Notes under the pieces: generated by a model
Told to the model about the DNA's origin: nothing
Database searches by the model: none
What the model saw: the letters and a program-made list of their open reading frames with translations, nothing else
Virus record (IMG/VR): IMGVR_UViG_3300033979_000546
Coordinates: 1-41,571 of that record
Strand: one strand, 5' to 3'
Source of the DNA: a virus
Length of the DNA stretch: 41,571 nt
In this document: positions 8,219 through 41,571 of the stretch, in pieces
Layout: each line of letters opens with the position of its first letter
How positions within the stretch are numbered: the first letter of the stretch is position 1
Program-made: the position numbers and the translations under genes

Positions 8219-9541
8219 TCAGCCGCTGAGGACGTCGGAGAGGTCGAGGATGGTGCGGTCGAGGCCGAGACGCTGGACCTGATCGGTGTTATCAGCGACG
8301 TAGCGTTCGTTTTCGCTACCGGCACGACCGGGACGCTCGATGTAGTCACTGATGCCGTGACGAGCGGTCATCTCGACCTTGGGCGAACGCTTGAGGACGT
8401 CCTCGACGTAGTCGCGGACTTCCTCCGAACGCATGGTCATCATGCGGTTGACGTGGCGATCGATCTGGTCGCGGTCGCCGATCGCGTACCCGAGCGAGGC
8501 GATCTCCCGGCACTTGGCCGTGAGCATCATCCGCTTAGCGGCCTGAGCCTCGCGGGCGTTGTGCCGCTGGAGTTCGGCAAGACTGCCGCGGAGTTCGTCG
8601 ATCTGCGAACGGAGAGCAGAGTTCTCCTGCTCGTACCGCGAGACCGGGGAGGGATTCGAGTTCTTCGTGGTGGTCTTGCTCACGCCTTGTTCCTCGGTGC
8701 TGAAGTCGACGCTTTCGGCGTCAGTCGGAGGAGTGAACCGGTCGCTGCCGTGGTCCGCTCCCTTGTTCGTGTGTTCCATCTCATACCGGAGCCGCTTGCG
8801 GGTCTGGCGGTAAGTGGTCGTCCCGTCACCCTTCTTCTCGGGGTCCGAACCTTCCTCCTCAGCACCACCGTCGGTCGGGTCGGTGTCCATCCCACTGGGG
8901 GAAGCCATCCCGCCCCCGCCCTCCATGGTATCCATGCCGGAAGAAGCCATGTCGTTCTGGGTCGCGTTCGCCTGACCCTCTGCGAGGATCTGCGCCACGA
9001 GCGGAGCGATCTGCTGCGCCAGCGTCTGGGGGTCCATCATGTCGTCACAGTCCTCGGTGTAAACGTAACGGGCGATCTCCGCTCCGTTCTGCTTGAAACG
9101 CATGACGGGAAGCGAGAAGTGCGGGTACCGTCCTCCGAGCAGGCTCACGTTGGTGAGACGATGCTTTGAGGGGATCACTTCTGCAGACCGATACGGAAAG
9201 TCACCACGTTTGATTTGGTCCCATGCGTGACGGCTGATGTTGACGAAGTCAGCGTACAGGACCTTGCCGATGCGACGGAGGTTGTCGACGAAACCGACGC
9301 GGGGAGGCTCGGGGGCGTCCGGCGACTCCGGGGTGTGCCCGATCGTGACGCTCGGAAGCATCGCGTATCTGGCGTTGCCGTTGGCGGCTTCGATCGAGTC
9401 GAGTTTCTGGTGGAGGAAGTCAGCGACGCAGCGGTCCAACCAGACCTCGTCACAAACATACTTGCGGTCGTGGTGGGCCTTGAAGACCGGGACGTTGAGG
9501 ACGTCGACGGAACCGTCTTTGTTCTCTTGCACGTCAAACAT
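8219..9541 (-). CDS. Prohead protease / scaffold, Mu gpI-like
   Basis: The 440-residue protein has two parts. Residues 1-175 look like the protease half (NVPVFKAHHDRKY, MLPSVTIGHTPESPDAP, VGFVDNLRRIGKVLYADFV, FPYRSAEVIPSKH), close to the pattern of Mu gpI-type prohead proteases. Residues 180-285 are acidic, Gly/Met-rich and disordered. Residues about 300-365 form a coiled coil (YEQENSALRSQIDELRGSLA), the expected scaffold part. Such proteins organise the procapsid and are then cut. The His in GHT and the Ser in YRSAE are candidate catalytic residues, not proven. Its ATG overlaps the upstream stop by eight bases. Confidence 0.78.
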   Translation of the reverse strand: MFDVQENKDGSVDVLNVPVFKAHHDRKYVCDEVWLDRCVADFLHQKLDSIEAANGNARYAMLPSVTIGHTPESPDAPEPPRVGFVDNLRRIGKVLYADFVNISRHAWDQIKRGDFPYRSAEVIPSKHRLTNVSLLGGRYPHFSLPVMRFKQNGAEIARYVYTEDCDDMMDPQTLAQQIAPLVAQILAEGQANATQNDMASSGMDTMEGGGGMASPSGMDTDPTDGGAEEEGSDPEKKGDGTTTYRQTRKRLRYEMEHTNKGADHGSDRFTPPTDAESVDFSTEEQGVSKTTTKNSNPSPVSRYEQENSALRSQIDELRGSLAELQRHNAREAQAAKRMMLTAKCREIASLGYAIGDRDQIDRHVNRMMTMRSEEVRDYVEDVLKRSPKVEMTARHGISDYIERPGRAGSENERYVADNTDQVQRLGLDRTILDLSDVLSG

Positions 9542-9857
9542 ACGTGATGTACCTCGCGGTGCAACTGCTCGCCCCGGACCGCTTCAACCACACCCGACTC
9601 GGGACCACACTGTGCAAGTACACGGACCCACCGGCGGCAAGGTCGATTGAACCAGCGTCGTCAGCCGGAGCGGAATCACCCACAGCCACGAACATAGTCG
9701 TGCTGGCGAGGTCGTTCACGATGAACACCCCACACGCGAAGGAATCGTTCTCCAGTTGAACGTAAGTGGCCGCAATCGAAGCCTTGGAGCCGATCTTCTT
9801 CACCCTCTGCGACGAGGATGAACCCGTACCTACGACGTATCCTGCGTTGGCAGTCAT
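9534..9857 (-). CDS. Small virion protein, paralogue of the next gene
   Basis: This 107-residue protein (MTANAGYVVGTGSSSSQRVK) resembles the product of 9865-10206 along its whole length: AGYVVGTGSSSSQRVKKIGS against TGYVVGVGRSSSQRVKSFGS, GGSVYLHSVVPSRVWLKRSG against GGSIYLHNVNPNKVWVARTA, and ARYITYV against VRYVIYV. The pattern is all beta, as in a small surface or spike-like capsid protein. The pair lies between accessory head genes and the protease. Role unknown; a decoration protein or head fibre is likely. Confidence 0.75.
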   Translation of the reverse strand: MTANAGYVVGTGSSSSQRVKKIGSKASIAATYVQLENDSFACGVFIVNDLASTTMFVAVGDSAPADDAGSIDLAAGGSVYLHSVVPSRVWLKRSGASSCTARYITYV

Positions 9858-9864
9858 TTTAACC

Positions 9865-10206
9865 TCATACGTAAATCACGTATCGAACGGTCGTGGTGCC
9901 CGTGGCGGTGCGGGCCACCCACACCTTGTTGGGGTTGACGTTGTGCAGGTAAATCGACCCACCGAGATCGAGTTGAATTGTGTTGGTGTAGTCCGCGTCC
10001 GCCGGGGCGTCGTCTTGATGAGCCACAGCCAAAGCGGCGGCAGAACCATCTTCAAACACCAGAAAGGCACCGCACGACAAGCCGGATTCGACGCTGGCCA
10101 AGTTCACGAACTTCCCAACGTTGGTCAGGCTGAACGAGCCGAACGACTTCACCCTCTGGGAGGATGAACGCCCGACGCCGACGACGTAGCCGGTACCCGC
10201 AGGCAT
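9865..10206 (-). CDS. Small virion protein, tandem paralogue
   Basis: This 113-residue beta-rich protein begins MPAGTGYVVGVGRSSSQRVK and is clearly related to its downstream neighbour, so the two arose by tandem duplication followed by strong divergence. The ATG at 10206 overlaps the upstream stop (TGATG). Conserved blocks are the N-terminal YVVG.G.SSSQRVK, the central FxSG/DSAPADD-like segment and the C-terminal RYxxYV. It may be a capsid decoration or head fibre subunit, and the pair may form hetero-oligomers. This is inference from position among head genes. Confidence 0.75.
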   Translation of the reverse strand: MPAGTGYVVGVGRSSSQRVKSFGSFSLTNVGKFVNLASVESGLSCGAFLVFEDGSAAALAVAHQDDAPADADYTNTIQLDLGGSIYLHNVNPNKVWVARTATGTTTVRYVIYV

Positions 10207-23487: not shown

Positions 23488-24810
23488 TCAAGGAACCGCA
23501 CTGGACCGTTTGCCATACTCGGTGGTCGCAGTGTGCGACGTGTTACCGGGCTCCAAGAGGTGCCATTTCAGGTCCTCCCGGAGCGACTTCTTTACATCCG
23601 CGTTGTTGACGAGCGACTTATCTACCGGTAACAAGCCCTTGGTCATCAAGTTGATCGACTCGGGGTTGGTGCCTCTCGGACCCATCTTTTCCTGCGTCAT
23701 CTCGTTGGCTTGGTCTCTGGTGACGAACTTACCTTCGTGAGTCATGAAACCATCACCCCAATCGTCCCACGCCTCCGGAATCCAATCACCGGCGGCTTCT
23801 GCAGCGTCACGAGCAGCACCGTGCCACGTACCCTCGTAAATCTTGCCGTCCTTGGTGCGGATGATCGCCGCAGAGCGGAACATGCCGTCCGAGTAACGGT
23901 CCAACTCGCCTAAGACTCCGAAGAACTCATCGTCGGAATATTTAATGCCCTTCCGCTCGAGGTGTTCCTTCAACTTCTTCTTGAAACGATCGCCTAAGCG
24001 ACCCGATTCCGCAACGGATTCGTCCAAGGGCAAGTGACCTTTGACCATCAAAGTCGTCGACTCCGGATAAGTCTGAGACAATTTATTGGCCTGATCACGA
24101 TTGACAAACTCGCCACCTTGAGTCACGAATCCGTCTTCGTACTCCGCCGGGTTATGCCACGGATCGTCACCATGGCCCGCGTCACTGGCAACTTGCCTCG
24201 CCGCCTCATGCCAAGTGCCCTCAAACACTTGACCGGTCTTCGTGTGCTTGATCGCCGCGGACCGGAACATTGAGTCGACGTGACGGTCTACCTCGTCGAG
24301 GTAGTCGTAGAAGTGACGGTCGGGGTCATCGATCCAAGGCCCGAAGGATTCCTCCCGGGCGATCCTTTCCCCTCGCTTCCGCGCCTCGGCCCTCTCGTCC
24401 ATCTCCACCAGTCTCTTCTGCGCTCCCTTAAGCCCGGGGTGCGAATCGATGGCACTTTCCAGATTAGCCTTCGCCCCGGGCGTCAGCATTCCGGCGTTCG
24501 CGAGTGAGAGAGTCTCCCCCCGCGTGTAGTCGCGCTCGGGCTTGGCCTCCCTCACCTCGGCGGTGGCGCGGTCCCGGTCGTGAAACTCCCCGCCCTCCGT
24601 CATGAAGCCGTCGTCCCACATGAACGGATTGTGGGCGTCAGGATGTCCGGCCTGAGCGGCGGCGTCGTGGGCCATGACGTGCATAGGACCCTCGAACACC
24701 TGACCGGTGTTCTTGTGATAGATGGCTGCGGACCGGTAAGCGTGCCGGTCTACGACGTCGAGGCCAAGGTAGAAGTCCACGTCGTCGGACATCGTTTGGA
24801 ACTCTTTCAC
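23488..24810 (-). CDS. Protein with three copies of a short module
   Basis: This 440-residue protein repeats one module at residues about 12-85, 165-245 and 294-371. Each copy has FYxxLDxxDRH, then FRSAAIxxxKTGQVFEGxxH, an Ala-rich helix, then a DGFxTxGGEFxxRDxA ending. The linkers also repeat (TLMVKGHLPLDESV and NLMTKGLLPVDKSL). The start GTG 24810 overlaps the upstream stop (GTGA); an ATG at 24792 is possible. It sits between the terminase and portal genes. No enzyme motif is visible; a repeated binding module is likely. Confidence 0.72.
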   Translation of the reverse strand: MKEFQTMSDDVDFYLGLDVVDRHAYRSAAIYHKNTGQVFEGPMHVMAHDAAAQAGHPDAHNPFMWDDGFMTEGGEFHDRDRATAEVREAKPERDYTRGETLSLANAGMLTPGAKANLESAIDSHPGLKGAQKRLVEMDERAEARKRGERIAREESFGPWIDDPDRHFYDYLDEVDRHVDSMFRSAAIKHTKTGQVFEGTWHEAARQVASDAGHGDDPWHNPAEYEDGFVTQGGEFVNRDQANKLSQTYPESTTLMVKGHLPLDESVAESGRLGDRFKKKLKEHLERKGIKYSDDEFFGVLGELDRYSDGMFRSAAIIRTKDGKIYEGTWHGAARDAAEAAGDWIPEAWDDWGDGFMTHEGKFVTRDQANEMTQEKMGPRGTNPESINLMTKGLLPVDKSLVNNADVKKSLREDLKWHLLEPGNTSHTATTEYGKRSSAVP

Positions 24811-29478: not shown

Positions 29479-29601
29479 ATGGACGCAATCGACATCGGCA
29501 TCTGCATCGTGGGCGGCATCCTCCTCTTGGGGGGTGCCGCCCTTCCGTTCCTCGTGGAGTACGGAACTCGCCACGGACTGGTGAAGCGGGGTGACGAGTG
29601 A
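29479..29601 (+). CDS. Tiny membrane protein
   Basis: A 40-residue protein starts at ATG 29479 after AAAGGA: MDAIDIGICIVGGILLLGGA, then a polar end (HGLVKRGDE). It has one membrane helix. Its stop overlaps the GTG start of the sigma-like gene (GTGA), indicating translational coupling. It could be a superinfection or membrane-associated regulator; no evidence supports one choice. Confidence 0.6.
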   Translation: MDAIDIGICIVGGILLLGGAALPFLVEYGTRHGLVKRGDE

Positions 29602-30176
29602 AGATCGACTTCCATCAGGCTGAGCGTTGGTTCGGGGAGGCCATCTGGTTCTGGGCCAACCGCTACAAGAACCGCCTCAACACCGCCGAGGACCTGTACC
29701 ACGAGATCCTCATCCGCGTGGTCGAACACGACTGGGAGGAGCGGAACACGTACTCGGTGAACCTCGAGCGGACGATCCCGGTCGACCCCGCTCACGTGCT
29801 CACGTTCGTCCGGTCCCGCACCATCGACATGATTCGCCGCGAGCGACGGGCACCGACCGGCGACGTGCCCACCTTCGCGGTCGACCGGTCACAGGGAGAC
29901 GTCGACCCGCCGCGGATGCTCCGGGACATGTTCCCGGAACTCAACGACGCCGACGTCACCATCCTCGTCGAGATCGCCACGCCCTCGGCCCGGACGATCG
30001 CTCTCGCGACCGTCGAGCAGGACGAGGCGAAACGCGACGCCCGCAACGGTGCCCTGCGGATGAACGTCAACGGGGCCCCGAGGATCACGCAGGCTCACGT
30101 GGCCCGGTCGCTGGGAGTGAGCACGAGCCGGGTCGCGCTCGCGGTCCGACGTGCAACCGCACTGCTTGAGGTCTGA
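29598..30176 (+). CDS. Sigma-factor-like protein 1
   Basis: The 192-residue protein starts at GTG 29598. It shows a sigma-70 region 2-like pattern (NTAEDLYHEILIRVVEHDWE and LTFVRSRTIDMIRRERRAPT) and a C-terminal helix-turn-helix resembling region 4 (ITQAHVARSLGVSTSRVALA). It ends the plus-strand early operon. It may redirect host RNA polymerase to phage promoters, perhaps for middle or late genes. It overlaps the end of the primase gene on the other strand by 92 bases. Confidence 0.68.
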   Translation: MKIDFHQAERWFGEAIWFWANRYKNRLNTAEDLYHEILIRVVEHDWEERNTYSVNLERTIPVDPAHVLTFVRSRTIDMIRRERRAPTGDVPTFAVDRSQGDVDPPRMLRDMFPELNDADVTILVEIATPSARTIALATVEQDEAKRDARNGALRMNVNGAPRITQAHVARSLGVSTSRVALAVRRATALLEV

Positions 30177-31011
30177 CCGGGGCCGAGGACCGGACCTTAT
30201 TCACGAGTTCACCCATGAGGGCCCCGCCAAGATCGGCGGGGTCCTTTTCATTTCCACGCCAGAGCACCGGGAACGCCTTCAACCCGACCGACCGCATCTC
30301 AGCCGCCGCCTGCACCGCCTTGTCTTCCGCGTCCGGGTCGAAGAGGACAAACACCCGCTCGGGGCTGAGACTGGACAGGGCGAACAGTTGGGACCGGCTG
30401 ACGGTGGACCCGCACACCGCGACGCTCGAAGGAGTGGCGAGGTGATCGAACACGCCCTCGACCACGAAGACGTCTCCGACCGGCTTGGTAACGTGCACCC
30501 CGTACAGGGGCTTCTCCTCACCGAAGTCTACCGTCTTGGGCTCCTGTGACCCGAGGGCCCTGCCCATCGCCCACGTCAATCGGCGATTCTCCCAATAAGG
30601 GAACCAGACCCGACCGTCGAACGGCTTGACGCTGAGCAGGTACCGGGACACCTGCCCCTCAGTTACTCCCCGACCGGCGAGGTACTTCCGGGCCCTGAGC
30701 GTCGGAGAGCCCGCGGGAGCGATCCCGGACGCGAGGGGATACAGATGGCCCCCGAGGTCGACGGACGCGACGGAAGTACCTTCCCGGGGCTCCCCGAGGC
30801 CGCGGAGGTACTGACGCCACTCCGACCGGCTGACCTCGGCCAGCAGGCTGCCCTTGAGACCACAACGGAAGCACAAGTACAGCAACCGGGTGCGGTGGAG
30901 GTACAAGTGTTCCGCCTTGCCACACTGCGGACAGGCGGTGACGATCTGGTCCCCAGCCAGACGGGCCCTCGAGCGGAGGACCGACTCGAGGACCTCACGC
31001 CTCGAGAACAC
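30085..31011 (-). CDS. DNA primase (DnaG-like)
   Basis: This 308-residue protein has an N-terminal zinc ribbon (C27, C30, C47, C50) and a TOPRIM domain with VFVVEGVFDHLA (Glu185) and FDPDAED (Asp225, Asp227). KDPADLGG at 257-263 is also typical of bacterial-type primases. It lacks a separate helicase-binding domain. It lies directly after the helicase and overlaps it by 17 bases. The C-terminal 30 residues, encoded opposite the sigma-like gene, are Arg/Pro-rich and probably not a conserved part. Confidence 0.85.
   Translation of the reverse strand: MFSRREVLESVLRSRARLAGDQIVTACPQCGKAEHLYLHRTRLLYLCFRCGLKGSLLAEVSRSEWRQYLRGLGEPREGTSVASVDLGGHLYPLASGIAPAGSPTLRARKYLAGRGVTEGQVSRYLLSVKPFDGRVWFPYWENRRLTWAMGRALGSQEPKTVDFGEEKPLYGVHVTKPVGDVFVVEGVFDHLATPSSVAVCGSTVSRSQLFALSSLSPERVFVLFDPDAEDKAVQAAAEMRSVGLKAFPVLWRGNEKDPADLGGALMGELVNKVRSSAPVRPQAVRLHVGPRARPGSCSLPATGPREPA
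30219..30253 (+). terminator. Plus-strand terminator inside the primase gene
   Basis: GGGCCCCGCC (30219-30228) pairs with GGCGGGGTCC (30235-30244) around a six-base loop (one G-U pair), followed by TTTTCATTT. It lies 43 bases after the sigma-like gene stop, so it probably ends the plus-strand operon. The same bases encode DPADLGG of the primase on the minus strand. Confidence 0.7.
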
Positions 31012-32230
31012 GCTGTACCTCGAAGTTGGCGATCAGGGGAACGTTGGCGCCCTTCTCGGCGTCGCGGACCTTGGCCGTGGTCATGACCATCCGCCCGGTC
31101 CGGACTTCGTCCTTCCTCTGACCGACCCCGAGCACCAGATCCGCACCCTCGACCTTGCCCATGCTCTCGGCGACGTGCTCGAGGTCCACGACTTCCTCAC
31201 CGGCCCGGCTACGCTGCACCTGACTCGCCGTCCAGTGCACCACGTCGAGGTCCATCGCCATCGCCTTGCAGTCTTCCGCGATCGACCGCCATTCGTGCCT
31301 CGGTTCCCGGTTCGCCGTCGACGCCCGGAACCGGTCCGCGTAGTCCGTGACCACGAGGTCGACCGGCCTGCCCGAACGCGACTGGTGGGCCCGGACGAAG
31401 TTCCAAGCGTCCCGTACGGTGGACTGGCGGACGAGCAGTCCCTTGATGCTCGCGTTCCCGCCCTTCTTGAGGAACCGGTCCCTGAGCCTGATCGCCTTGT
31501 CTTGATCCTGTACCAACTGCTCGACGGTCATGCCGGTGATGCACTGCAAGAACCGTCGTCGGATCTTGCGCTCGCCGTCCTCGAACGTGAAATACACCAC
31601 GTTGAGACCCGCAGCCATGGCCGCGACGGCGACGTTCACCAGCAGCGTGGTCTTGCCGACGTTGATGAAGGACAGGATCGCACACAGGTCGCCCTTCTCC
31701 GGACCGCCGCGCAGCAGGTCGTTGATGAACGGCCACGGCGTGACCACGGTCGGCCTCCGCAGGTCCTCGGCACCGATGTCACCGTTCAACGTCAGGAACG
31801 ACTCGCCAATGGAAGAGCCGATCCGGCTGGCCTGAACGATCCGCTCGGCGAGTTCCTCGGGATTGAGGCCGTCGGCGTCCTCGAAGGCCGCATCGATGGC
31901 CCGCCACTGGGAGAACCCGGCGATGCGGTCCCGGACGTACCCGACGTCCCTGACCGGCGAGAACGCCCTCACCCGCTCCTGAGCCTCGTAGGCCGATCGA
32001 TGCCCGCTCTCGGCGACGGACTCCTCGAGAACCGGCAGGCTCGGCACCCGGTTGTACCGGTCGAACAGGGAGAGCAATTGGTCGGCGATCAGCCGGTTGA
32101 CCGGGTCGGCAAAGGTAGACCCGGAAACCACGACCCGGACCTGCGGGAGCAGATCCGGGTCGGTGGCTAGGGCACTGAGGATCAGGGGCTCGAGCGATGG
32201 AGGGCAGTCAGCCCGTCGAACCAAATCCAT
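30995..32230 (-). CDS. Replicative DNA helicase (DnaB-like)
   Basis: The 411-residue protein, from ATG 32230, matches the RecA-like core of DnaB helicases: Walker A SFINVGKTT near residue 187, VVYFTFEDGE near 211, Walker B LVVTDYADRF near 290, and DVVHWTASQVQRSRAG near 330. The Walker A motif is shortened compared with the typical A.P..GKT form. The N-terminal 150 residues are helical. It should unwind DNA at the fork with the primase coded after it. It overlaps dUTPase by 26 bases. Confidence 0.85.
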   Translation of the reverse strand: MDLVRRADCPPSLEPLILSALATDPDLLPQVRVVVSGSTFADPVNRLIADQLLSLFDRYNRVPSLPVLEESVAESGHRSAYEAQERVRAFSPVRDVGYVRDRIAGFSQWRAIDAAFEDADGLNPEELAERIVQASRIGSSIGESFLTLNGDIGAEDLRRPTVVTPWPFINDLLRGGPEKGDLCAILSFINVGKTTLLVNVAVAAMAAGLNVVYFTFEDGERKIRRRFLQCITGMTVEQLVQDQDKAIRLRDRFLKKGGNASIKGLLVRQSTVRDAWNFVRAHQSRSGRPVDLVVTDYADRFRASTANREPRHEWRSIAEDCKAMAMDLDVVHWTASQVQRSRAGEEVVDLEHVAESMGKVEGADLVLGVGQRKDEVRTGRMVMTTAKVRDAEKGANVPLIANFEVQRVLEA

Positions 32231-32633
32231 TGGAACCTCGCTGGGTCTCGGGGAGTGCGCCCACCACGGTCGCGTTGACCTTGGCGTACGGGAGCACCAG
32301 CAGTTGGGCGATCCGCTCGCCGGTCTCCACCCTGACCTCCCGGGCACCGCCAACGCCCGGATTGAACGCGATCACGTAGATCGGTCCGACGTACCCTTCG
32401 TCGATGATCGAAGTCGGGACGATCAGACCCTTCTTGGCGAAGGTGGAGGATCGACCCGTGATCATACCGAAGTGACCGGCGGGAATCTTCACCCTGATTC
32501 CGCTCGGGATCGACGTGAAAGTCTGGACGCCGATCGACACCGTACCGCCGACGTTCATCAGGTCGATACCGGCGTCCCCGTCGCGGGCGGGAGACAGGGG
32601 AACCGGCAGGAGTGTGTCGACGATGACTTGCAT
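32208..32633 (-). CDS. dut: dUTPase (trimeric dUTP nucleotidohydrolase)
   Basis: All five trimeric dUTPase motifs are visible in the 141-residue product: I, DAGIDL at residues 20-25; II, GRSS at 60-63; III, GLIVPTSIIDEGYVGPI at 69-85 with Asp78 and Tyr81; IV, RIAQLL at 107-112; V, RGSNGFGSTG at 132-141. It converts dUTP to dUMP and keeps uracil out of phage DNA. I use ATG 32633, three bases after the kinase stop; an in-frame GTG at 32648 would add five residues. Its place in the PurZ operon ties it to nucleotide pool control. Confidence 0.93.
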   Translation of the reverse strand: MQVIVDTLLPVPLSPARDGDAGIDLMNVGGTVSIGVQTFTSIPSGIRVKIPAGHFGMITGRSSTFAKKGLIVPTSIIDEGYVGPIYVIAFNPGVGGAREVRVETGERIAQLLVLPYAKVNATVVGALPETQRGSNGFGSTG

Positions 32634-32635
32634 GG

Positions 32636-33109
32636 TCAGGGCTTCCACGGGATCTTCACCTCCTCAATGCGAACCCCGCAGTGCTCGGCGACGTCAAGGA
32701 CGTCCTCCACGTCGTGCACGCTGTATTCGTGCCGGTTGAACTCTACCGACCCGTGCTGGTAAACCGCAGGGATGGGACGCCCGACCTTCATCACGGTCAC
32801 GCCGTGTACCGAGGCCTTCGGGAAGAACCACTCGGCCTGCTGGCGATCCCGCGGGAACCCGTCGAGAACGAGGGGCCGGTTGAGTTCGCAGGCGACCGAG
32901 AGCAAGTCGAGGACGTAGTTCCTCACCAGATCCTCGGTCAGGTCCCACCGGTTCGGGTTCTTCTGGGTTACCGCCGGGAACATGCCCACCGACTCGCGGA
33001 TCATGCGGCCCGGTCGACCGACGATCCAGAGCGGTTGGGGGAAACAGTTGTCCACCGCGTACGTCTTGCCCGACGAGGTGGTACCGATCACACAGACGAT
33101 CATAGCCAT
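32636..33109 (-). CDS. Adenylate-kinase-like nucleoside monophosphate kinase
   Basis: This 157-residue protein has a P-loop (GTTSSGKT near residue 9) and the adenylate-kinase signature LVLDGFPRDRQQAEWFF near residue 80. It is shorter than bacterial adenylate kinase and seems to lack the usual LID insertion. GGAGG lies seven bases before ATG 33109. It overlaps the end of PurZ by 10 bases. In Z-genome phages the new dZMP must be phosphorylated, so this kinase is a candidate for that step; it could equally act on another monophosphate. Confidence 0.75.
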   Translation of the reverse strand: MAMIVCVIGTTSSGKTYAVDNCFPQPLWIVGRPGRMIRESVGMFPAVTQKNPNRWDLTEDLVRNYVLDLLSVACELNRPLVLDGFPRDRQQAEWFFPKASVHGVTVMKVGRPIPAVYQHGSVEFNRHEYSVHDVEDVLDVAEHCGVRIEEVKIPWKP

Positions 33110-34116
33110 TCCGTATCCTCCGACTTGGGACCGTAGGAAACGCCCATGACGGGGGCGTCACTGATTGAGTTGAGGGTGTCGATGAACTCGCCGAGTTTGT
33201 TGCCGGGAAGGTAATCGCCGAAGGTCACGAAGAGCCGAGTCGGCCTGCACGTCCGCTCGAACTTCGTGAACTGGGCCTTCGAGAAGGAGAACACCCGGCG
33301 GACCCGCTTGGTCACGGTGGTGGTCTCCATGACTTCCTTACCGGCGATCGCAGAGACGTCCGACCACGCGAGTTCCTGCTGGTCGTCGTAGAACGGACCG
33401 GAAGAGAACTCGCCTACGTCACCGACCCGGATCGGGAACGTCCGGACCACTCCGATCACCTCGCGGCAGTCGAAGGGACTGAGACCGGCGTTGTCGAGCA
33501 TGCGGTTCGGAGTGACGTCCCGACTGGTCACGTGCGGGTACTGGTGCCCGTGGTTGAGGCTAAGATCGAATCCCTGAGAACCCTCGAGCATGATCGGGGC
33601 GCGACTGGCGATCATCTGGTTGTAGACCGCCGTCTTCATCACCATCATCCGCGAGTGAGTTGGCTTCACGTCCTTGGCGAAGGTGCCGAGACCCAACCGC
33701 TCCACCTTGCGGATCTGAGCGTTGCCGCCGCCCTGACCGGTCGACGCGATGCGGTTGACGAGATGGTCCTCCTTCATCATGTCGGCCTGTTGGACGGTGG
33801 ACGCCAGAGGGTCGACGTAAAGGACGCCCCCGAGCGGAGCGAGCCAGTTCCATTCGGTGACGAGGGCGGTCTCATAGAACGCCGCATGGGGCCCGAGCAC
33901 CCCGGTACGACCGAGGGCACAGGCGATCGGGAGGGCCTTGAGCACTCGCTTCTCGCCGTTCAGGTCGTAGACCGTATGACCGGCGTTCGGCATGTTGTCC
34001 GAGACGCCGACCTGAATCTCGGGGAACTTCTGGTAAAGGGCACCCTCTACCTTGCCCTTGCCGCACGAACCCCACTGGCTGTCGATGACGCAAATGGCAC
34101 CGGGTCCGATCTTCAC
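33100..34116 (-). CDS. purZ: PurZ, N6-succino-2-amino-2'-deoxyadenylate synthase
   Basis: The 338-residue protein is a PurA (adenylosuccinate synthetase) relative of phage PurZ type. The N-terminal loop reads DSQWGSCGKGKVEG: where PurA has the catalytic Asp of WGDEGKG, this has Ser17, the known PurZ change that admits dGMP. DNMPNAGHT (residues 40-48, His47), STGQG near 125, EGSQGFDLSLN at 178, TSRDVTPNRML at 197 and TTTVTKRVRRVFSFS at 265 match phage PurZ rather than bacterial PurA. It joins aspartate to dGMP using a nucleoside triphosphate; host PurB then yields dZMP. The start GTG 34116 overlaps the preceding stop. Length is below PurA (about 430). Confidence 0.93.
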   Translation of the reverse strand: MKIGPGAICVIDSQWGSCGKGKVEGALYQKFPEIQVGVSDNMPNAGHTVYDLNGEKRVLKALPIACALGRTGVLGPHAAFYETALVTEWNWLAPLGGVLYVDPLASTVQQADMMKEDHLVNRIASTGQGGGNAQIRKVERLGLGTFAKDVKPTHSRMMVMKTAVYNQMIASRAPIMLEGSQGFDLSLNHGHQYPHVTSRDVTPNRMLDNAGLSPFDCREVIGVVRTFPIRVGDVGEFSSGPFYDDQQELAWSDVSAIAGKEVMETTTVTKRVRRVFSFSKAQFTKFERTCRPTRLFVTFGDYLPGNKLGEFIDTLNSISDAPVMGVSYGPKSEDTEWL

Positions 34117-34868
34117 TTCTTACCCCCCTTGAGCAGGTCGCGGATGCTGGTCGCGTTGGTCTTCGGCTTCGCCGCCGGGGCGAAGATCTCTTCGGCGTCC
34201 TCGTCCTCCTCCGGCTCCGCTGCCTTGGCGGGCTTCTTGGCGACCGGGGCGGGCGTGGGCTCCTCGAGTTCGAACTCGGCGGGATCGACTCCGAGGGCGT
34301 CACCCTGACGCTCGAGACCGGGGTCCTCGACGGCGGAAATCGGGTCCTTCACGCCCTTGGCGAACTTGGAAACGTCGACGGCCTTCTGACCGACCATCAC
34401 CGAATACTTGGTCTTGAGACCGGCACCGGTCCGCTTGATCTTGAACGGCAGGCCCGCCTTGAGGTCGAGAACGTTCTCGAACTCGTCGTCGAGCAGGATC
34501 TCGAGGATCGCCTCATAAACGCTCGCCGGGAGTTGCCACACCCGGAGTTCGACGTCGCCGGAACCGCCGACCTCGACGCCGTTCACGAGGTACGCCTTGG
34601 CCTCCCGCCACGCAAAGTCGGGTGATGAATCGCGGACAGCGTCGAACAGGTCGGGCTTGCCCCAGTTACCGCGGTGCGGGACCGGACGCCCCTCCTTCGG
34701 TCGCCACTGGCGGAACTCGCGACCGACCAACTGCTTGCCAGTCTCGGCGTCGGTGAACGGGAGGATGCGGAGGGTGGTGTCCTCCTTGACGTAAGCCACG
34801 TAGCCCGTGCTGCGACGCTCCTGAGCGTCCTTCAACTGCTTCCTGAGCAGGTCCTTGTCGATCGTCAT
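34113..34868 (-). CDS. Probable single-stranded DNA-binding protein
   Basis: The 251-residue protein starts at ATG 34868 (ATGA overlap). The centre (YVAYVKEDTTLRILPF, FRQWRPKEGRPVPHRGNWGK) and the overall layout resemble phage ssDNA-binding proteins: an OB-fold-like part to about residue 175, then a disordered Pro/Ala/Glu-rich acidic stretch (AEPEEDEDAEEIF), and a short basic end (SIRDLLKGGKK). Such acidic tails bind replication partners. Position between the polymerase and PurZ genes supports this. The family call is by layout rather than by a signature. Confidence 0.65.
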   Translation of the reverse strand: MTIDKDLLRKQLKDAQERRSTGYVAYVKEDTTLRILPFTDAETGKQLVGREFRQWRPKEGRPVPHRGNWGKPDLFDAVRDSSPDFAWREAKAYLVNGVEVGGSGDVELRVWQLPASVYEAILEILLDDEFENVLDLKAGLPFKIKRTGAGLKTKYSVMVGQKAVDVSKFAKGVKDPISAVEDPGLERQGDALGVDPAEFELEEPTPAPVAKKPAKAAEPEEDEDAEEIFAPAAKPKTNATSIRDLLKGGKK

Positions 34869-35107
34869 GAGAGTTGCTCCTTCAGTGCTGCAACCAGTTC
34901 GAACGTGGTCTCGTGGACACGCGCCACGAGCCGGTCCCTGACTTCGTCGTGAGTCTCGCCCTGCCGTACTTCGTCGCCCTCGCCATACTCGACGCGGACC
35001 GACTCGTACCCGGGCATGCTCACGGTTCTCGCCATGGACACGTACACCCGTCTCGCTCCGACCGACGAGTCGGAAGATTGCCCAACCGTCGCCCGCTTAC
35101 TTGACAT
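34865..35107 (-). CDS. Small protein, unknown
   Basis: This 80-residue protein (MSSKRATVGQSSDSSVGARR) has a Ser-rich N-terminus and a helical end (DEVRDRLVARVHETTFELVA). AAGGAG precedes the ATG, which lies inside the polymerase end (11-base overlap); its stop overlaps the SSB-like start. It may be a replication accessory factor. No motif was recognised. Confidence 0.65.
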   Translation of the reverse strand: MSSKRATVGQSSDSSVGARRVYVSMARTVSMPGYESVRVEYGEGDEVRQGETHDEVRDRLVARVHETTFELVAALKEQLS

Positions 35108-37268
35108 CCTGCATCTCCTTGAGGTTGCGACCGACCTTCAGGTCGACCTTGAACGGGACCCCACGAGGTTCCCAATAATGCATTGCGTTGTGGATCAACA
35201 TGCACTCCTTCAACGTCTCGACGCCTTCTTCGAGCCACTCGTTCGACACGTCAATGACGATGGAATCGTGAATCTGCATGATGACGTCGCCCCGCAGAAA
35301 CAGCCGCTCCTGCAACATGCAGAGGCTGAGCATCGTCAACTTAGCCGCGGTGGACTGGATCGGGGAATTACCCGCCTGACGGTAAGCACGCTGCCGAATC
35401 TGTTCGTCGTTGTTCCAGACGTCCGGCAGGTGCCGACGCGACCCGAACAGGTCCCGCACGTACCCGTTGCGGACCGCGAAGGCGACCTGTTCCTGCTTCC
35501 ACCGGGCGACGCCCGGGAAGGACACGTCGTACCGCTTGAGCAGGGCCCGGGCGTCCGGCAGCGTGAGGCCGGTCTTCTGGGCGAGGCCATATTCGGTCTG
35601 CCCGTAGATGATCCCTAAGTTCATCCGCTTGCCGACGTCCCGCTGCCGATCGTCCACGTCCTCGAAGCGGACGCTGAAGATTTCGCTGGCCGCGAACCGA
35701 TGGAGGTCGAGCCCGTCATTGAGGGCTGACTTCATCTTCTCGTCACCGCTGATCCCGGCAACTAGTCTGGGCTCCTGCTGAGCGTAGTCACCGGCGACCA
35801 ACCAACCGCCCGACCTGCTCACGAAGACCGACTTGACGATCGAGTTCTTGGGCACGTTCTGGAAGTTAGGCTCAGTGCTCGAGAGCCTGCCGGTCATGGT
35901 CACGGCCTGCGAGAACTGGCCGTGCATCAGACCCTTCGGACTGACGTACTGACTCCACTTGTCGATGAAACCCGACACCATCGCGGACTTCGACCGCCAA
36001 CCGGCGAGGGCCCGGAGCACCGGGTGCTTGCCTTCCAACTTCTCGAGAACCCGCTTGTCGAGACTGGGCGACCCGCTCTTGGTCCTGCCCTTCACCTTCT
36101 CCTTGAGGACCTTGAACACGAGGTGCTGCATCATCGGGTTGCTGTTCGGGTTGAACTCGCGACCGAAGTGATCGCTGACGGCCACCACCTCAGGACTCTC
36201 GAACACCTCGCGGCGTGCCGACTCCACGTCCTTCACCAACTGCTCCCTCACCTCGGCCAGACGGTCGCGGTCGAACGCGATCCCGGTGGTCTCGAGCCGG
36301 GCCAAGCCGAGGCTAAATTCGTTCTCCATCGACCAGACGCCCCGCTGCTCGTCGTCCATCCGCTCGCACATCTTCGCCTTGAGGTCGAGGGTGGCGAGGG
36401 CGTCGAGACCGTTGTACCGGAGCAGGTCGGTGATCTTGGCCTCGATCGGGTTCTCCCCGACGCCGTCGGACTTGTGTCCCCACCGGATGCCAAACCGCTT
36501 CATGCAAGCGGAGAGCGAGTGACCGGCGGCCTCCTCGAGGACGTAAGAGGCGAGCATCGTGTCCTCCGCGGGCCATGTCTTACCGAACTTGCGGTAGTTA
36601 ACCTTGTGCTCGTACTTCACGTTGTGGGCACAAGAAGGACACGACGCGAGGACCGAGGACCAGACGGCCAGCACCGCCTCAGAGTCGATCTTCACTTGCG
36701 GGTGTTCCACCGGGAACGAGATCGCAACCGGGCCGAGTTCAGCGTCGTCGAACGCGAGGCCGATCGAGAGGATCCGGAACTCGGCATTGAGTTCCGGCCT
36801 GATGGCGTTCACATCGCCCCACGTCTCATAGTCGTAGGCGATCGGGCGCGGAGTTTCAACGAATTCTTGCAGGACGGTCAGGATCTGCTCGGTGTCGAGC
36901 AACATCACGACGTCCGGGACCTCGACCTCGTCACCCTTGGCCAGTTCGAGAGCGAACTCCCAAACGTCACACCAAGACTCCACGGTACGCTCGGCCTCGC
37001 CGCCCTTCTCGCGACTGGCTTCTACCACCTTCAGCGGGTGGTGTTGCACGACCACGTTGGTGCCGTCCTCGAGCGTGAAACGCTCGCCCACGTCCTTCCG
37101 CATGTTGACGGACCTGCCCAGCACCTTTTCAGCGGCCTTCTTGCCGAGGGCCACCACCAGACCGGACACCGGCGACCCCACCGCCGCCAGTTCAAACTCC
37201 TTCGGTATGATGCCCCGGTGCTCAGTCGGTTCCGTCACGTCTACCGCGAACAAGGGAATCGAAGACAT
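35097..37268 (-). CDS. Family A DNA polymerase with 3'-5' exonuclease (candidate DpoZ)
   Basis: The 723-residue protein has three parts. Residues 1-110 resemble the C-terminal part of a family 4 uracil-DNA glycosylase (VVALGKKAAEKVLG; VVVQHHPLK). Residues 140-300 are a 3'-5' exonuclease with YDYETW (Asp146, Glu148), AHNVKYEH (Glu220 where Asp is usual) and YNGLD (Asp289). Residues 440-723 are the polymerase: TGRLSSTEPNFQNVP, motif A GDYAQQEPR (Asp494, Glu499), motif B GKRMNLGIIYG (Lys547, Leu551, Tyr555), motif C QIHDSIVID (Asp668). Leu551 is the E. coli 762 position. In PurZ phages such a polymerase is often DpoZ, which prefers dZTP over dATP; this is inferred from the operon. Confidence 0.93.
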   Translation of the reverse strand: MSSIPLFAVDVTEPTEHRGIIPKEFELAAVGSPVSGLVVALGKKAAEKVLGRSVNMRKDVGERFTLEDGTNVVVQHHPLKVVEASREKGGEAERTVESWCDVWEFALELAKGDEVEVPDVVMLLDTEQILTVLQEFVETPRPIAYDYETWGDVNAIRPELNAEFRILSIGLAFDDAELGPVAISFPVEHPQVKIDSEAVLAVWSSVLASCPSCAHNVKYEHKVNYRKFGKTWPAEDTMLASYVLEEAAGHSLSACMKRFGIRWGHKSDGVGENPIEAKITDLLRYNGLDALATLDLKAKMCERMDDEQRGVWSMENEFSLGLARLETTGIAFDRDRLAEVREQLVKDVESARREVFESPEVVAVSDHFGREFNPNSNPMMQHLVFKVLKEKVKGRTKSGSPSLDKRVLEKLEGKHPVLRALAGWRSKSAMVSGFIDKWSQYVSPKGLMHGQFSQAVTMTGRLSSTEPNFQNVPKNSIVKSVFVSRSGGWLVAGDYAQQEPRLVAGISGDEKMKSALNDGLDLHRFAASEIFSVRFEDVDDRQRDVGKRMNLGIIYGQTEYGLAQKTGLTLPDARALLKRYDVSFPGVARWKQEQVAFAVRNGYVRDLFGSRRHLPDVWNNDEQIRQRAYRQAGNSPIQSTAAKLTMLSLCMLQERLFLRGDVIMQIHDSIVIDVSNEWLEEGVETLKECMLIHNAMHYWEPRGVPFKVDLKVGRNLKEMQDVK

Positions 37269-37797
37269 CGTCCAAGGTCCTTATCTCAAGGCCATGAGCG
37301 GATGCTTGGGCCTTGGCTTCTCGTCTCGCCTCGGACTGGACTTCTTGGACCGGACGCTTGAGCCTCCGAGCCACTTCCACGTGGACGCCCACGAAGGTGC
37401 CAGTCTCCACGTAGAACTTCACGTACTCCTCCAAGACTGGACCGGTGAACGTTAGTCGGTTCCCGTCTTCCTGCTTGGACGGACGGTAGTCGAGGTCATC
37501 GTGACCGGACTCCCGCGACTTGCTCAGCACCTTGCGGACCTCGTCCCTCATGGCCCGCACGCCGATCTTCATCACGAGAGCCTTTACTGTCGCGTCCCTC
37601 CCCAAGTCGACGTACCCGATGTTCTTCCAGACCTTGACCAGACCGCACTGTACCGCGTCGTCGACACATTGGCTCGCGATGCGACGCGCGACCGACGTCA
37701 GCACCGGCTTGAGCAAGTAGTAGAGTTCGTCAAAGTTACCCCGTTGGGCCTTACGGACCGCCGAGGACCACTCTCCGCCACGTTCTTCCGCGGACAT
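37222..37797 (-). CDS. Sigma-factor-like protein 2
   Basis: The 191-residue protein starts at ATG 37797 (GGAG upstream, 47-base overlap with the preceding gene). Residues 20-95 resemble sigma region 2 (NFDELYYLLKPVLTSVARRI, DDAVQCGLVKVWKNI). Around 135-165 GTFVGVHVEVARRLKRPVQE resembles a region 4-type helix-turn-helix. The space between is Lys/Asp-rich. It lies between nuclease and polymerase genes, so it should be made early and could start late transcription. Similarity to the plus-strand sigma-like protein is only structural. Confidence 0.68.
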   Translation of the reverse strand: MSAEERGGEWSSAVRKAQRGNFDELYYLLKPVLTSVARRIASQCVDDAVQCGLVKVWKNIGYVDLGRDATVKALVMKIGVRAMRDEVRKVLSKSRESGHDDLDYRPSKQEDGNRLTFTGPVLEEYVKFYVETGTFVGVHVEVARRLKRPVQEVQSEARREAKAQASAHGLEIRTLDDVFDSLVRGRRDGTD

Positions 37798-38179
37798 CCG
37801 TGACTCCGCAAGGGTTTTCGGGCAACTTGAGGGCCCGGCAGTCGCCATAAACGAACGTGACGCCCTCGGCCTTGACGAACAGGTAGCAATGCACGGCACG
37901 GGTCTGTTGCGCTTCCGTTCTGGCCTTTTCGATGGCTTGGTCGAGCCACGAAAGGCCGAGCATGAGAGACTTCACGGTCATCCGCCGGTCCTTGCATTCT
38001 ACCACGAATCGGTATGGATCGGAGATCGCATACACGTCTCCCTTGAGGTCGGTCCTCCCCGAGTTTCGGGTGGACGTGAACTCCATACCAGTGACCGAAG
38101 TCATGAAGCGAGCGACCTCCTGCTCGAATCGCTTTCCCTTTCGCCTCGACTTCCGACCGACGGCTGACCAGTCGCTCAC
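37751..38179 (-). CDS. PD-(D/E)XK nuclease, resolvase-like
   Basis: The 142-residue protein starts at GTG 38179, which overlaps the upstream stop (GTGA) with GGGAGGT before it. It begins MSDWSAVGRKSRRKGKRFEQ; the active-site pattern is Glu in FEQEVARF, Asp in GRTDLKGDVYAI, and ECK in FVVECKDRR. This is the archaeal-Hjc-like/RecB-type PD-(D/E)XK core. It may resolve branched replication or recombination DNA before packaging. Neighbours are the Cas4-like nuclease and sigma-like gene. Confidence 0.78.
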   Translation of the reverse strand: MSDWSAVGRKSRRKGKRFEQEVARFMTSVTGMEFTSTRNSGRTDLKGDVYAISDPYRFVVECKDRRMTVKSLMLGLSWLDQAIEKARTEAQQTRAVHCYLFVKAEGVTFVYGDCRALKLPENPCGVTDVRGRTWRRVVLGGP

Positions 38180-39030
38180 GAACACCTCCCGCGGCACCGG
38201 CTCCAGTAACCGCAAAACCGCTCCGAGCAACACCACGCCTCGGGGGCAGTGAGCGGGAAGTTGCCGAGGCTGATCGAGTTCGCGACGCTCAAGGCCACCG
38301 CCCGGAACCACTTCACCCTCTTCGGATTGTAAGCGATGAACTGGGGGTTCACCTTGCCCGACTTGAGCAGGTTCACGTACCCGACGTCGAAGTCCACGTC
38401 GCCGGTCTCCGATTCAACCATCGCGTAGAAGGACAACTGCAGGCTCGACTCGAGTTCGGCCTGACTCTTGGACCGGCTGACGGTCTTGTAGTCCACGATC
38501 GACGGCCTCGACCCGACGGCACCCGAGGCGTCGGTGATCCCGCGAACCTCGAGGTCCCCGATCTTGGCCGTGACGTCGAACTCTTGCTTCACCGGACGGA
38601 AGCCACCGGCGAAGTCGTTCATGTACGCCTTGATCATCTTCCTGCCGCGACCGATCACGTCGTCCTCGGTGTCGCCTTCCCAGTCTTCGATCTCCTTCTT
38701 CCGCTTGTCGAAGGACGCGGCGAAGGCGTCCACGACGTCGGACTCCCTGAGGTCGTCGCCGGTCTCGATCTTGTTCTTGTTGTTGGTGGCCAGTGCCTCG
38801 TGGTGGCTCGAACCTTCGACTAGAGCGATCCCCGGCGGGGACACGATCCCGTCGACATACCGCCACTTGTACTGCATCGGGCACCGCAGGTACATGTCAA
38901 TCTGCGACGGGGACAAGTACCCCTTGGGCAACTGAATCTTGGTGGTAACGAGCGACTGCTCGAACTCGTCCACCGCGGGGGCCGACTCAACCTTCAAAGT
39001 CTTCAACTGGGGAATCTTCACCTTGGACAT
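38176..39030 (-). CDS. Cas4/RecB-like Fe-S exonuclease
   Basis: This 284-residue protein has the PD-(D/E)XK pattern of Cas4/AddB-type nucleases: LSPSQIDMYLRCPMQYKW (Cys50), then GITDASG (Asp167), IVDYKTV (Asp180, Lys182) and a Gln motif near 198. Four further Cys lie at the C-terminus (WCCSERFCGYWSRCRGRC), which with Cys50 could hold an iron-sulfur cluster. It probably processes DNA ends during recombination-dependent replication. AGGAG precedes the ATG. No CRISPR system is present, so this is a phage replication nuclease. Confidence 0.85.
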   Translation of the reverse strand: MSKVKIPQLKTLKVESAPAVDEFEQSLVTTKIQLPKGYLSPSQIDMYLRCPMQYKWRYVDGIVSPPGIALVEGSSHHEALATNNKNKIETGDDLRESDVVDAFAASFDKRKKEIEDWEGDTEDDVIGRGRKMIKAYMNDFAGGFRPVKQEFDVTAKIGDLEVRGITDASGAVGSRPSIVDYKTVSRSKSQAELESSLQLSFYAMVESETGDVDFDVGYVNLLKSGKVNPQFIAYNPKRVKWFRAVALSVANSISLGNFPLTAPEAWCCSERFCGYWSRCRGRCS

Positions 39031-41184: not shown

Positions 41185-41571
41185 CCAAGGTTCCCTCCGG
41201 GTCGAAGCCACGGAAGGTCATCACCGAACGGCAACGGATCAAATGCGTAGTTGAGCCTCGGGTCTTCGGGGAACGCGATATAGTTCTCGGGTTCGTAGTT
41301 GCCGTGGTAGTAGACGCCGGTGTCGATCACGTACCGCCAGTGAAGCGTGTACTGCCGCCACTGGCCGTCCTGAATCGGCTCCGGGTTGTGTGGTTGAATG
41401 AACGCCTCGAGCAGGCGACCGCTCGGGTCGATCGGCCTCGGGGGCGGTGGCAACTGGTGGGAGTCACGGGCGGCACAGACGTAATAACCCGCCTGAGTGA
41501 TGATCATGCTCGGACCGGCAGTGGACACCAAGTAAGGACCGTTCGCGGCAGTGCCCGGTGCGACGTCTTTG
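41181..41571 (-). CDS. Tail protein, 3' part (same gene as 1-1497)
   Basis: This is the C-terminal part of the tail gene that starts at 1497; it runs off the right edge because of the circular cut. It ends FGDDLPWLRPGGNLG with TGA at 41183-41181, overlapping the ATG of the next tail gene. Codons in 41343-41571 repeat those at 1-229, and the frame agrees exactly, confirming the join. Only 41181-41342 is new sequence (54 codons including the stop). Confidence 0.85.
   Translation of the reverse strand, partial: KDVAPGTAANGPYLVSTAGPSMIITQAGYYVCAARDSHQLPPPPRPIDPSGRLLEAFIQPHNPEPIQDGQWRQYTLHWRYVIDTGVYYHGNYEPENYIAFPEDPRLNYAFDPLPFGDDLPWLRPGGNLG
41343..41571. repeat. Terminal overlap, right copy
   Basis: This is the second copy of bases 1-229, at an offset of 41,342. 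It matches at 227 of 229 positions. The two mismatches do not change the encoded tail protein, so sequence variation in the phage population is a likelier reason than random error. Confidence 0.93.

Follow-up and report, generated by a model that had tools for sequence, protein, structure and literature searches.

An adenylate-kinase-fold gene coupled to purZ in an uncultivated phage: a candidate third type of 2-aminoadenine gene cluster

The purZ gene of the uncultivated phage IMGVR_UViG_3300033979_000546 raises the question of whether a phage that lacks the usual companions of this gene would still carry 2-aminoadenine (Z) in its DNA, and which genes would then bring this about. Current accounts describe two types of Z phages, PurZ/DatZ/MazZ and PurZ0/DutZ/DmtZ, each with its own DpoZ polymerase, and regard host enzymes as responsible for phosphorylating dZMP (PMC12884076). 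The window analysed here is the whole phage record of 41,571 bp. Because its ends repeat (1-229 and 41343-41571, identical at 227 of 229 positions), the genome is apparently essentially complete, and the absence of genes from it is thus meaningful. Its terminase gave only distant matches to isolate phages, at about 24% identity.

An earlier sequence-only reading had placed a purZ gene in a replication operon and had taken a Z genome to be probable. The setting is right. On the minus strand, the operon runs from a Cas4-like PD-(D/E)XK exonuclease (38176-39030) through a PD-(D/E)XK resolvase-like protein (37751-38311), a sigma-like protein, a family A DNA polymerase (PolA), an 80-aa protein of PHROG 5189 that is kept in locus L002 (34865-35107) and a gp32-like single-strand DNA-binding protein (34113-34868) to PurZ, followed by a P-loop protein, a dUTPase-like protein, a DnaB-type replicative helicase (30995-32353, true start probably an ATG near 32230) and a DnaG-like primase with a TOPRIM-like region (30085-31011). 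purZ therefore lies between ssb, with which it shares a GTGA overlap at its start, and the helicase and primase genes.

Identity and phylogenetic position of PurZ

The open reading frame of purZ was confirmed at 33100-34116 (minus strand, GTG start, 338 aa), and the motifs reported for it, DSQWGSCGKG with Ser17, DNMPNAGHT and ETTTVTKRVRRVFSFS, are all present. In a phmmer search of solved structures, the PurZ proteins of phiVC8 (6FM1, E 3e-42) and S-2L (7ODX, E 2e-35) came ahead of all PurA. The focal protein is 31-37% identical to PurZ of phiVC8, S-2L and SH-Ab 15497. It matches PHROG 1211 (E 2e-56) as well as the NCBIfam model amino_Aden_PurZ (NF038379; E 8e-57, 193 bits); the curated cut-off of 300 bits, which is not reached, is an annotation threshold and not a biochemical feature, and would leave out this divergent clade. 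Against three relatives of 74-77% identity, dN/dS was about 0.17-0.23, which indicates purifying selection on the gene.

The AlphaFold2 model (pLDDT 87) superimposes best on phiVC8 PurZ (Z 40.2, rmsd 2.2 over 323 residues), ahead of S-2L PurZ (Z 38.1), Pyrococcus horikoshii PurA (36.2), PurZ0 (36.1) and other PurA (about 33). The pocket for the dGMP base was defined from S-2L PurZ (PMC8342488), and its residues are kept in the focal protein (G16, S17, N44, A45, T126, Q181 and V231, with W15 replacing Y21), as are R140, R230 and R273. The assignment of the gene to PurZ is well supported by its sequence matches, the model, the dGMP pocket and the tree, and judging from sequence and model the protein very probably has PurZ activity, i.e. 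the formation of dSMP from dGMP and aspartate.

Ser17 does occupy the site of the catalytic Asp of PurA, but it is not diagnostic by itself. Short PurA homologues with Ser were found in many cellular genomes (the genome scan selected for Gly-Ser, so the Ser counts are selected), among them chromosomes of Pseudomonas, Bradyrhizobium, Paenibacillus, cyanobacteria and others, where they are accompanied neither by DatZ nor by a clear kinase neighbour. We therefore rejected Ser17 as sole proof of PurZ and regard it as necessary, not sufficient. Most of the cellular Ser-type homologues fall outside the phage PurZ clade, and it is the tree, not the Ser, that assigns the focal gene to phage PurZ. Such short homologues occur in bacterial and archaeal loci of the series L170-L248 (e.g. 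L197, L203, L228, L241 and L248); several of this series have a far longer open frame (about 540 aa or more), which points to an additional domain.

The phylogenetic placement against PurZ and PurA, which had been proposed as a check, groups the focal gene with phage PurZ and apart from PurA. In a tree of 113 sequences, the PurZ0 clade (35 entries) and the DatZ clade (37 entries, including S-2L, phiVC8, SH-Ab 15497 and Bm1) are each well supported. The focal PurZ belongs to neither but to an 18-member clade (support 100/99) in which a kinase gene stands beside purZ in every member; the viral scan for PurZ loci comprised the best 80 of more than 560 matches, which enriches this very clade. An identity as PurZ0 was rejected on this basis. 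When cellular Ser-type homologues were added, the clade (hereafter Kin) grew to 26 entries (98/93), 23 of which have the kinase; its position next to the DatZ clade has moderate support (88/78). The members without kinase are L038, L044 and L184; in L038, DUF5664 and a dUTPase are found where the kinase would stand.

Companion genes and DNA polymerase

Profiles for DatZ, MazZ-1, MazZ-2, DmtZ and DUF5664, seeded with S-2L, phiVC8, SH-Ab 15497, Bm1, Ghobes, Korra and IMG/VR relatives, gave no match at E<10 in the six frames of the focal genome. A family search of the whole record likewise found DatZ and DUF5664 absent, while the control phages were matched. Among 20 whole Kin-class (kinase-bearing) records there was no DatZ, compared with 3/3 DatZ controls, and no DUF5664. 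The Pfam MazG family (PF03819) was of no diagnostic use here, as it misses even the MazZ of S-2L. With no DatZ, MazZ, DUF5664 or DmtZ detected, a Z cluster of the classical DatZ/MazZ type was rejected. The classical reading thus holds for the identity of PurZ, which sequence, model, pocket and tree bear out, and fails for the usual companions DatZ, MazZ and DpoZ.

The DpoZ part of this statement concerns the family A DNA polymerase with its 3'-5' exonuclease domain (35097-37268, minus strand). Phe at the steric gate is the sole change common to both DpoZ clades (PMC8599892). The focal polymerase has Tyr555 at this position, as do 17 of the 18 Kin-class polymerases, whereas Phe is found in 23 of the 27 DatZ-class polymerases. 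In a PolA tree built with a quick method, of which the broad split alone is trustworthy, the focal polymerase lies among ordinary phage PolA (98% SH-aLRT) and apart from the DpoZ clades of the PurZ0 and DatZ classes. Tyr555 and the grouping outside DpoZ-1 and DpoZ-2 led us to reject an identity as DpoZ. Since the polymerase is without the only residue common to both characterised DpoZ clades, the replacement of adenine could be anything from complete to nil.

Two further features of this polymerase may be mentioned. Its exonuclease motif II (HNVKYEH) has Glu where the compared DpoZ have Asp; Glu is also found in 14 of the 15 other Kin-class polymerases that are long enough, with Asp in L075 only, and it may affect proofreading. 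Residues 36-86 match the uracil-DNA-glycosylase family domain TIGR03914 weakly (E 1e-4), and the N-terminal part is possibly a remnant of a glycosylase-polymerase fusion.

The kinase and dUTPase-type genes downstream of purZ

The P-loop gene (32636-33109, minus strand, 157 aa) overlaps the 3' end of purZ; its ATG lies inside purZ and is preceded by GGAGG. The protein was placed in a family by profile and fold searches. At the usual cut-off it fell into none of the named families: the Pfam ADK score was 13.9 bits against a gathering score of 26.8, with its relatives below or barely at that score. A single-sequence search of solved structures (PDB) gave no convincing relative, and none was found in 50,697 sequenced phages. 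The AlphaFold2 model (pLDDT 91, pTM 0.87) matched adenylate kinases (Foldseek E 2e-6; Z about 15 over 148 residues), and the Foldseek list also includes polynucleotide kinases. With the fold, the Walker A motif GTTSSGKT and the signature LVLDGFPRDRQQ (PS00113), which has the form DGFPRxxx[NQ], the protein has the features of the adenylate kinase family. It shares fold (Z about 15), Walker A and DGFPRxxxQ with AK1 and Bacillus subtilis Adk, but differs from them in its low identity (about 18%), its very short lid and its coupling to purZ.

In 21 members of this kinase group, G14, K15, G34, R38, D83, P86, R87 and Q91 are invariant. The focal-clade kinases are without an Arg-rich lid stretch that is present in other members. 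Q91 occupies the position through which adenylate kinases recognise N1 and N6 of adenine. As Z has the N1 and the 6-amino group of adenine, Q91 fits dZMP or dAMP, not dGMP. Adenylate-kinase folds act on AMP, UMP/CMP, polynucleotide and other substrates; for the focal kinase, we lean slightly towards dZMP.

A profile census of 168 loci detected the kinase in 29 distinct PurZ loci (the matches in L003, L015 and L032 being more divergent), and in most of them it starts about -57 to +12 bp from the end of purZ. A scan with the profile of one subgroup gave 11 loci, and in each of them purZ directly precedes the kinase gene. All 20 whole Kin-class records contain the kinase, compared with 0/4 control phages; as the homologous loci are not independent, its co-occurrence with purZ is partly shared descent. 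Fusions of the kinase to an all-alpha dUTPase_2 domain that scores over the Pfam cut-off occur in six phages (L031, L033, L037, L040, L041 and L061), and a fusion to a trimeric dUTPase occurs in L055. We found no literature on such a kinase in Z phages, within a partial coverage, and the purZ-kinase arrangement is apparently undescribed.

Two observations concern other loci. L075 and L077 represent a PurZ phage of the DatZ/MazZ type with a P-loop kinase gene (9304-9954) directly upstream of purZ, so recruitment of a kinase may have happened more than once. In a Kin subgroup (L016-L021 and L027, contigs of up to 136 kb), no PolA or dUTPase turned up at 10 kb or less from purZ, but two of its records have a dUTPase at a distance of about 50-80 kb.

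The kinase gene is overlapped by the next gene of the operon (32208-32648, minus strand, ATG start probably at 32633), which encodes a trimeric dUTPase-fold protein (Pfam dUTPase, E 1.5e-22) in which all five dUTPase motifs are intact. The lowest E-values were obtained with dUTPases of Microbacterium phages, several of which also gave PurZ matches. In a dUTPase tree, which has few alignment columns and can be read for its broad split only, one side (99/98) holds 20 of the 21 dUTPases from contigs without visible PurZ, and the other holds those of PurZ phages, including the focal one, with few exceptions. The protein thus combines trimeric dUTPase motifs with a grouping among PurZ-phage dUTPases, as expected of DutZ. 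The 20 whole Kin-class records contain a trimeric dUTPase (10/20) or dUTPase_2 (7/20), never both. DutZ turns dATP and dGTP into dAMP and dGMP and itself still hydrolyses dUTP (PMC12884076). In the published DmtZ-DutZ fusion of phage Wayne, which the Kin-class kinase-dUTPase fusions parallel, the Dut part hydrolyses dATP and dGTP (PMC12884076). By analogy with the characterised DutZ, the focal protein may have the same activity on dATP and dGTP.

A proposed Z gene cluster and its alternatives

Starting from what was seen directly, i.e. the gene identities, folds, clade, co-occurrence, fusions and the absence of detectable DatZ, MazZ, DUF5664 and DmtZ, we consider it reasonably probable that the operon represents a third type of Z gene cluster, with a kinase that phosphorylates dZMP. 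In this scheme, the DutZ-like pyrophosphohydrolase would remove dATP and convert dGTP to dGMP, as the characterised DutZ suggests. PurZ would form dSMP from dGMP and aspartate, an activity well supported for the family, and host PurB would convert dSMP to dZMP, as established for other Z phages. The new step would be the phosphorylation of dZMP to dZDP by the purZ-coupled kinase. Host NDK would then make dZTP, as published work on other Z phages suggests, and the phage family A polymerase would place Z opposite T. Z would be selected over A mainly through the nucleotide pool, by hydrolysis and selective re-phosphorylation, and less through a DpoZ-type polymerase; a kinase acting on dZMP and not on dAMP would add selectivity, with dATP and dGTP stripped and Z alone rebuilt. 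In S-2L, Z specificity is achieved by pool control with an unselective PrimPol (PMC8342488, PMC8065100). A Z genome is plausible for the focal phage, and some Z in its DNA is likely. The strictly kinase-gated version, in which an ordinary polymerase is combined with DutZ-like stripping of dATP and dGTP and a kinase that re-phosphorylates dZMP only, is put forward as a tentative proposal.

With the cluster of phiVC8, S-2L and SH-Ab 15497 (PurZ, DatZ and MazZ, with DpoZ in phiVC8 and SH-Ab 15497), the focal operon shares the PurZ fold, the dGMP pocket and the position of purZ beside nucleotide-pool genes in the replication region, and the PurZ clades stand side by side. Unlike these phages, it has no detected DatZ or MazZ and a polymerase outside the DpoZ clade without its Phe; instead, adenylate-kinase-like and DutZ-like genes are present. 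With the PurZ0/DutZ/DmtZ type (PMC12884076) it shares a trimeric dUTPase-type protein, with the same placement in the dUTPase tree, and the habit of fusing pool enzymes, but its PurZ lies outside the PurZ0 clade, DmtZ and DUF5664 are absent, and it carries a kinase that was not found in Ghobes.

The proposed role of the kinase has to be weighed against a simpler one, in which PurZ is classical and Z is in the genome, while the kinase is a general dNMP kinase (acting e.g. on dAMP or dTMP) that only boosts the dNTP supply. Phages often carry dNMP kinases, and the adenylate-kinase fold is broad in its substrates. Nevertheless, we regard this explanation as unlikely, since the kinase adjoins purZ in 18/18 clade members, was found neither in the control phages nor in 50,697 sequenced phages, and has an invariant base-reading Gln; a dAMP kinase would moreover refill dATP, contrary to the aim of the pathway. 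For the neighbouring gene, an ordinary dUTPase that excludes uracil from DNA, unrelated to Z, would account for the five intact motifs, and DutZ itself hydrolyses dUTP (PMC12884076). What makes this somewhat unlikely is that the protein groups with PurZ-phage dUTPases in the tree, that its gene overlaps the kinase gene and that sister phages fuse the kinase to dUTPases of two unrelated folds.

The genome itself could be a mixture of A and Z, if PurZ provided some dZTP and a polymerase with an ordinary gate inserted A and Z alike. This would agree with the lack of DatZ, with Tyr555 and with the place of the polymerase among ordinary phage polymerases, and Klenow likewise does not discriminate between A and Z (PMC8342488). 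We are somewhat doubtful of this explanation, however, because control of the nucleotide pool is by itself enough for full substitution in S-2L, whose polymerase is unselective (PMC8065100); the DutZ-like protein could exert a similar control. Normal phage DNA would be expected if the enzyme were a Ser-type PurA homologue with another product, as the Ser-bearing cellular homologues, with neither DatZ nor a clear kinase beside them, might suggest. This appears very improbable: most of these homologues are outside the phage PurZ clade, the focal PurZ adjoins the DatZ clade of proven Z phages, the top structural match is a dGMP-bound PurZ, and the dGMP pocket is kept.

If the third type is real, it would name the missing dZMP-phosphorylating enzyme, extend Z-DNA without a DpoZ-type polymerase beyond S-2L, and offer a compact gene set for the production of Z-DNA in laboratory bacteria. 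The kinase-gated version, if true, would be the first case of a dZMP kinase encoded by a phage, and would add to the routes to Z-DNA a third one that was assembled independently. This type has so far been seen in uncultivated phages only; its existence would also mean that part of the Z virosphere escapes screens based on DatZ, DpoZ or sequenced isolates.

Some minor features of the focal genome lie in or outside the operon. Two proteins with weak sigma-70 region 2 matches are encoded on opposite strands (29598-30176, plus; 37222-37899, minus); the plus-strand gene overlaps the 3' end of the primase gene and has the same position in L002. Two small neighbouring minus-strand genes (9534-9857 and 9865-10206) are paralogue-like, with a GYVVGxGxSSSQRVK start, and probably encode virion proteins. 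The protein encoded at 23488-24810 (minus strand) contains three imperfect internal repeats of the FRSAAIxHTKTGQVFEGTWH type, spaced 387 and 471 nt apart.
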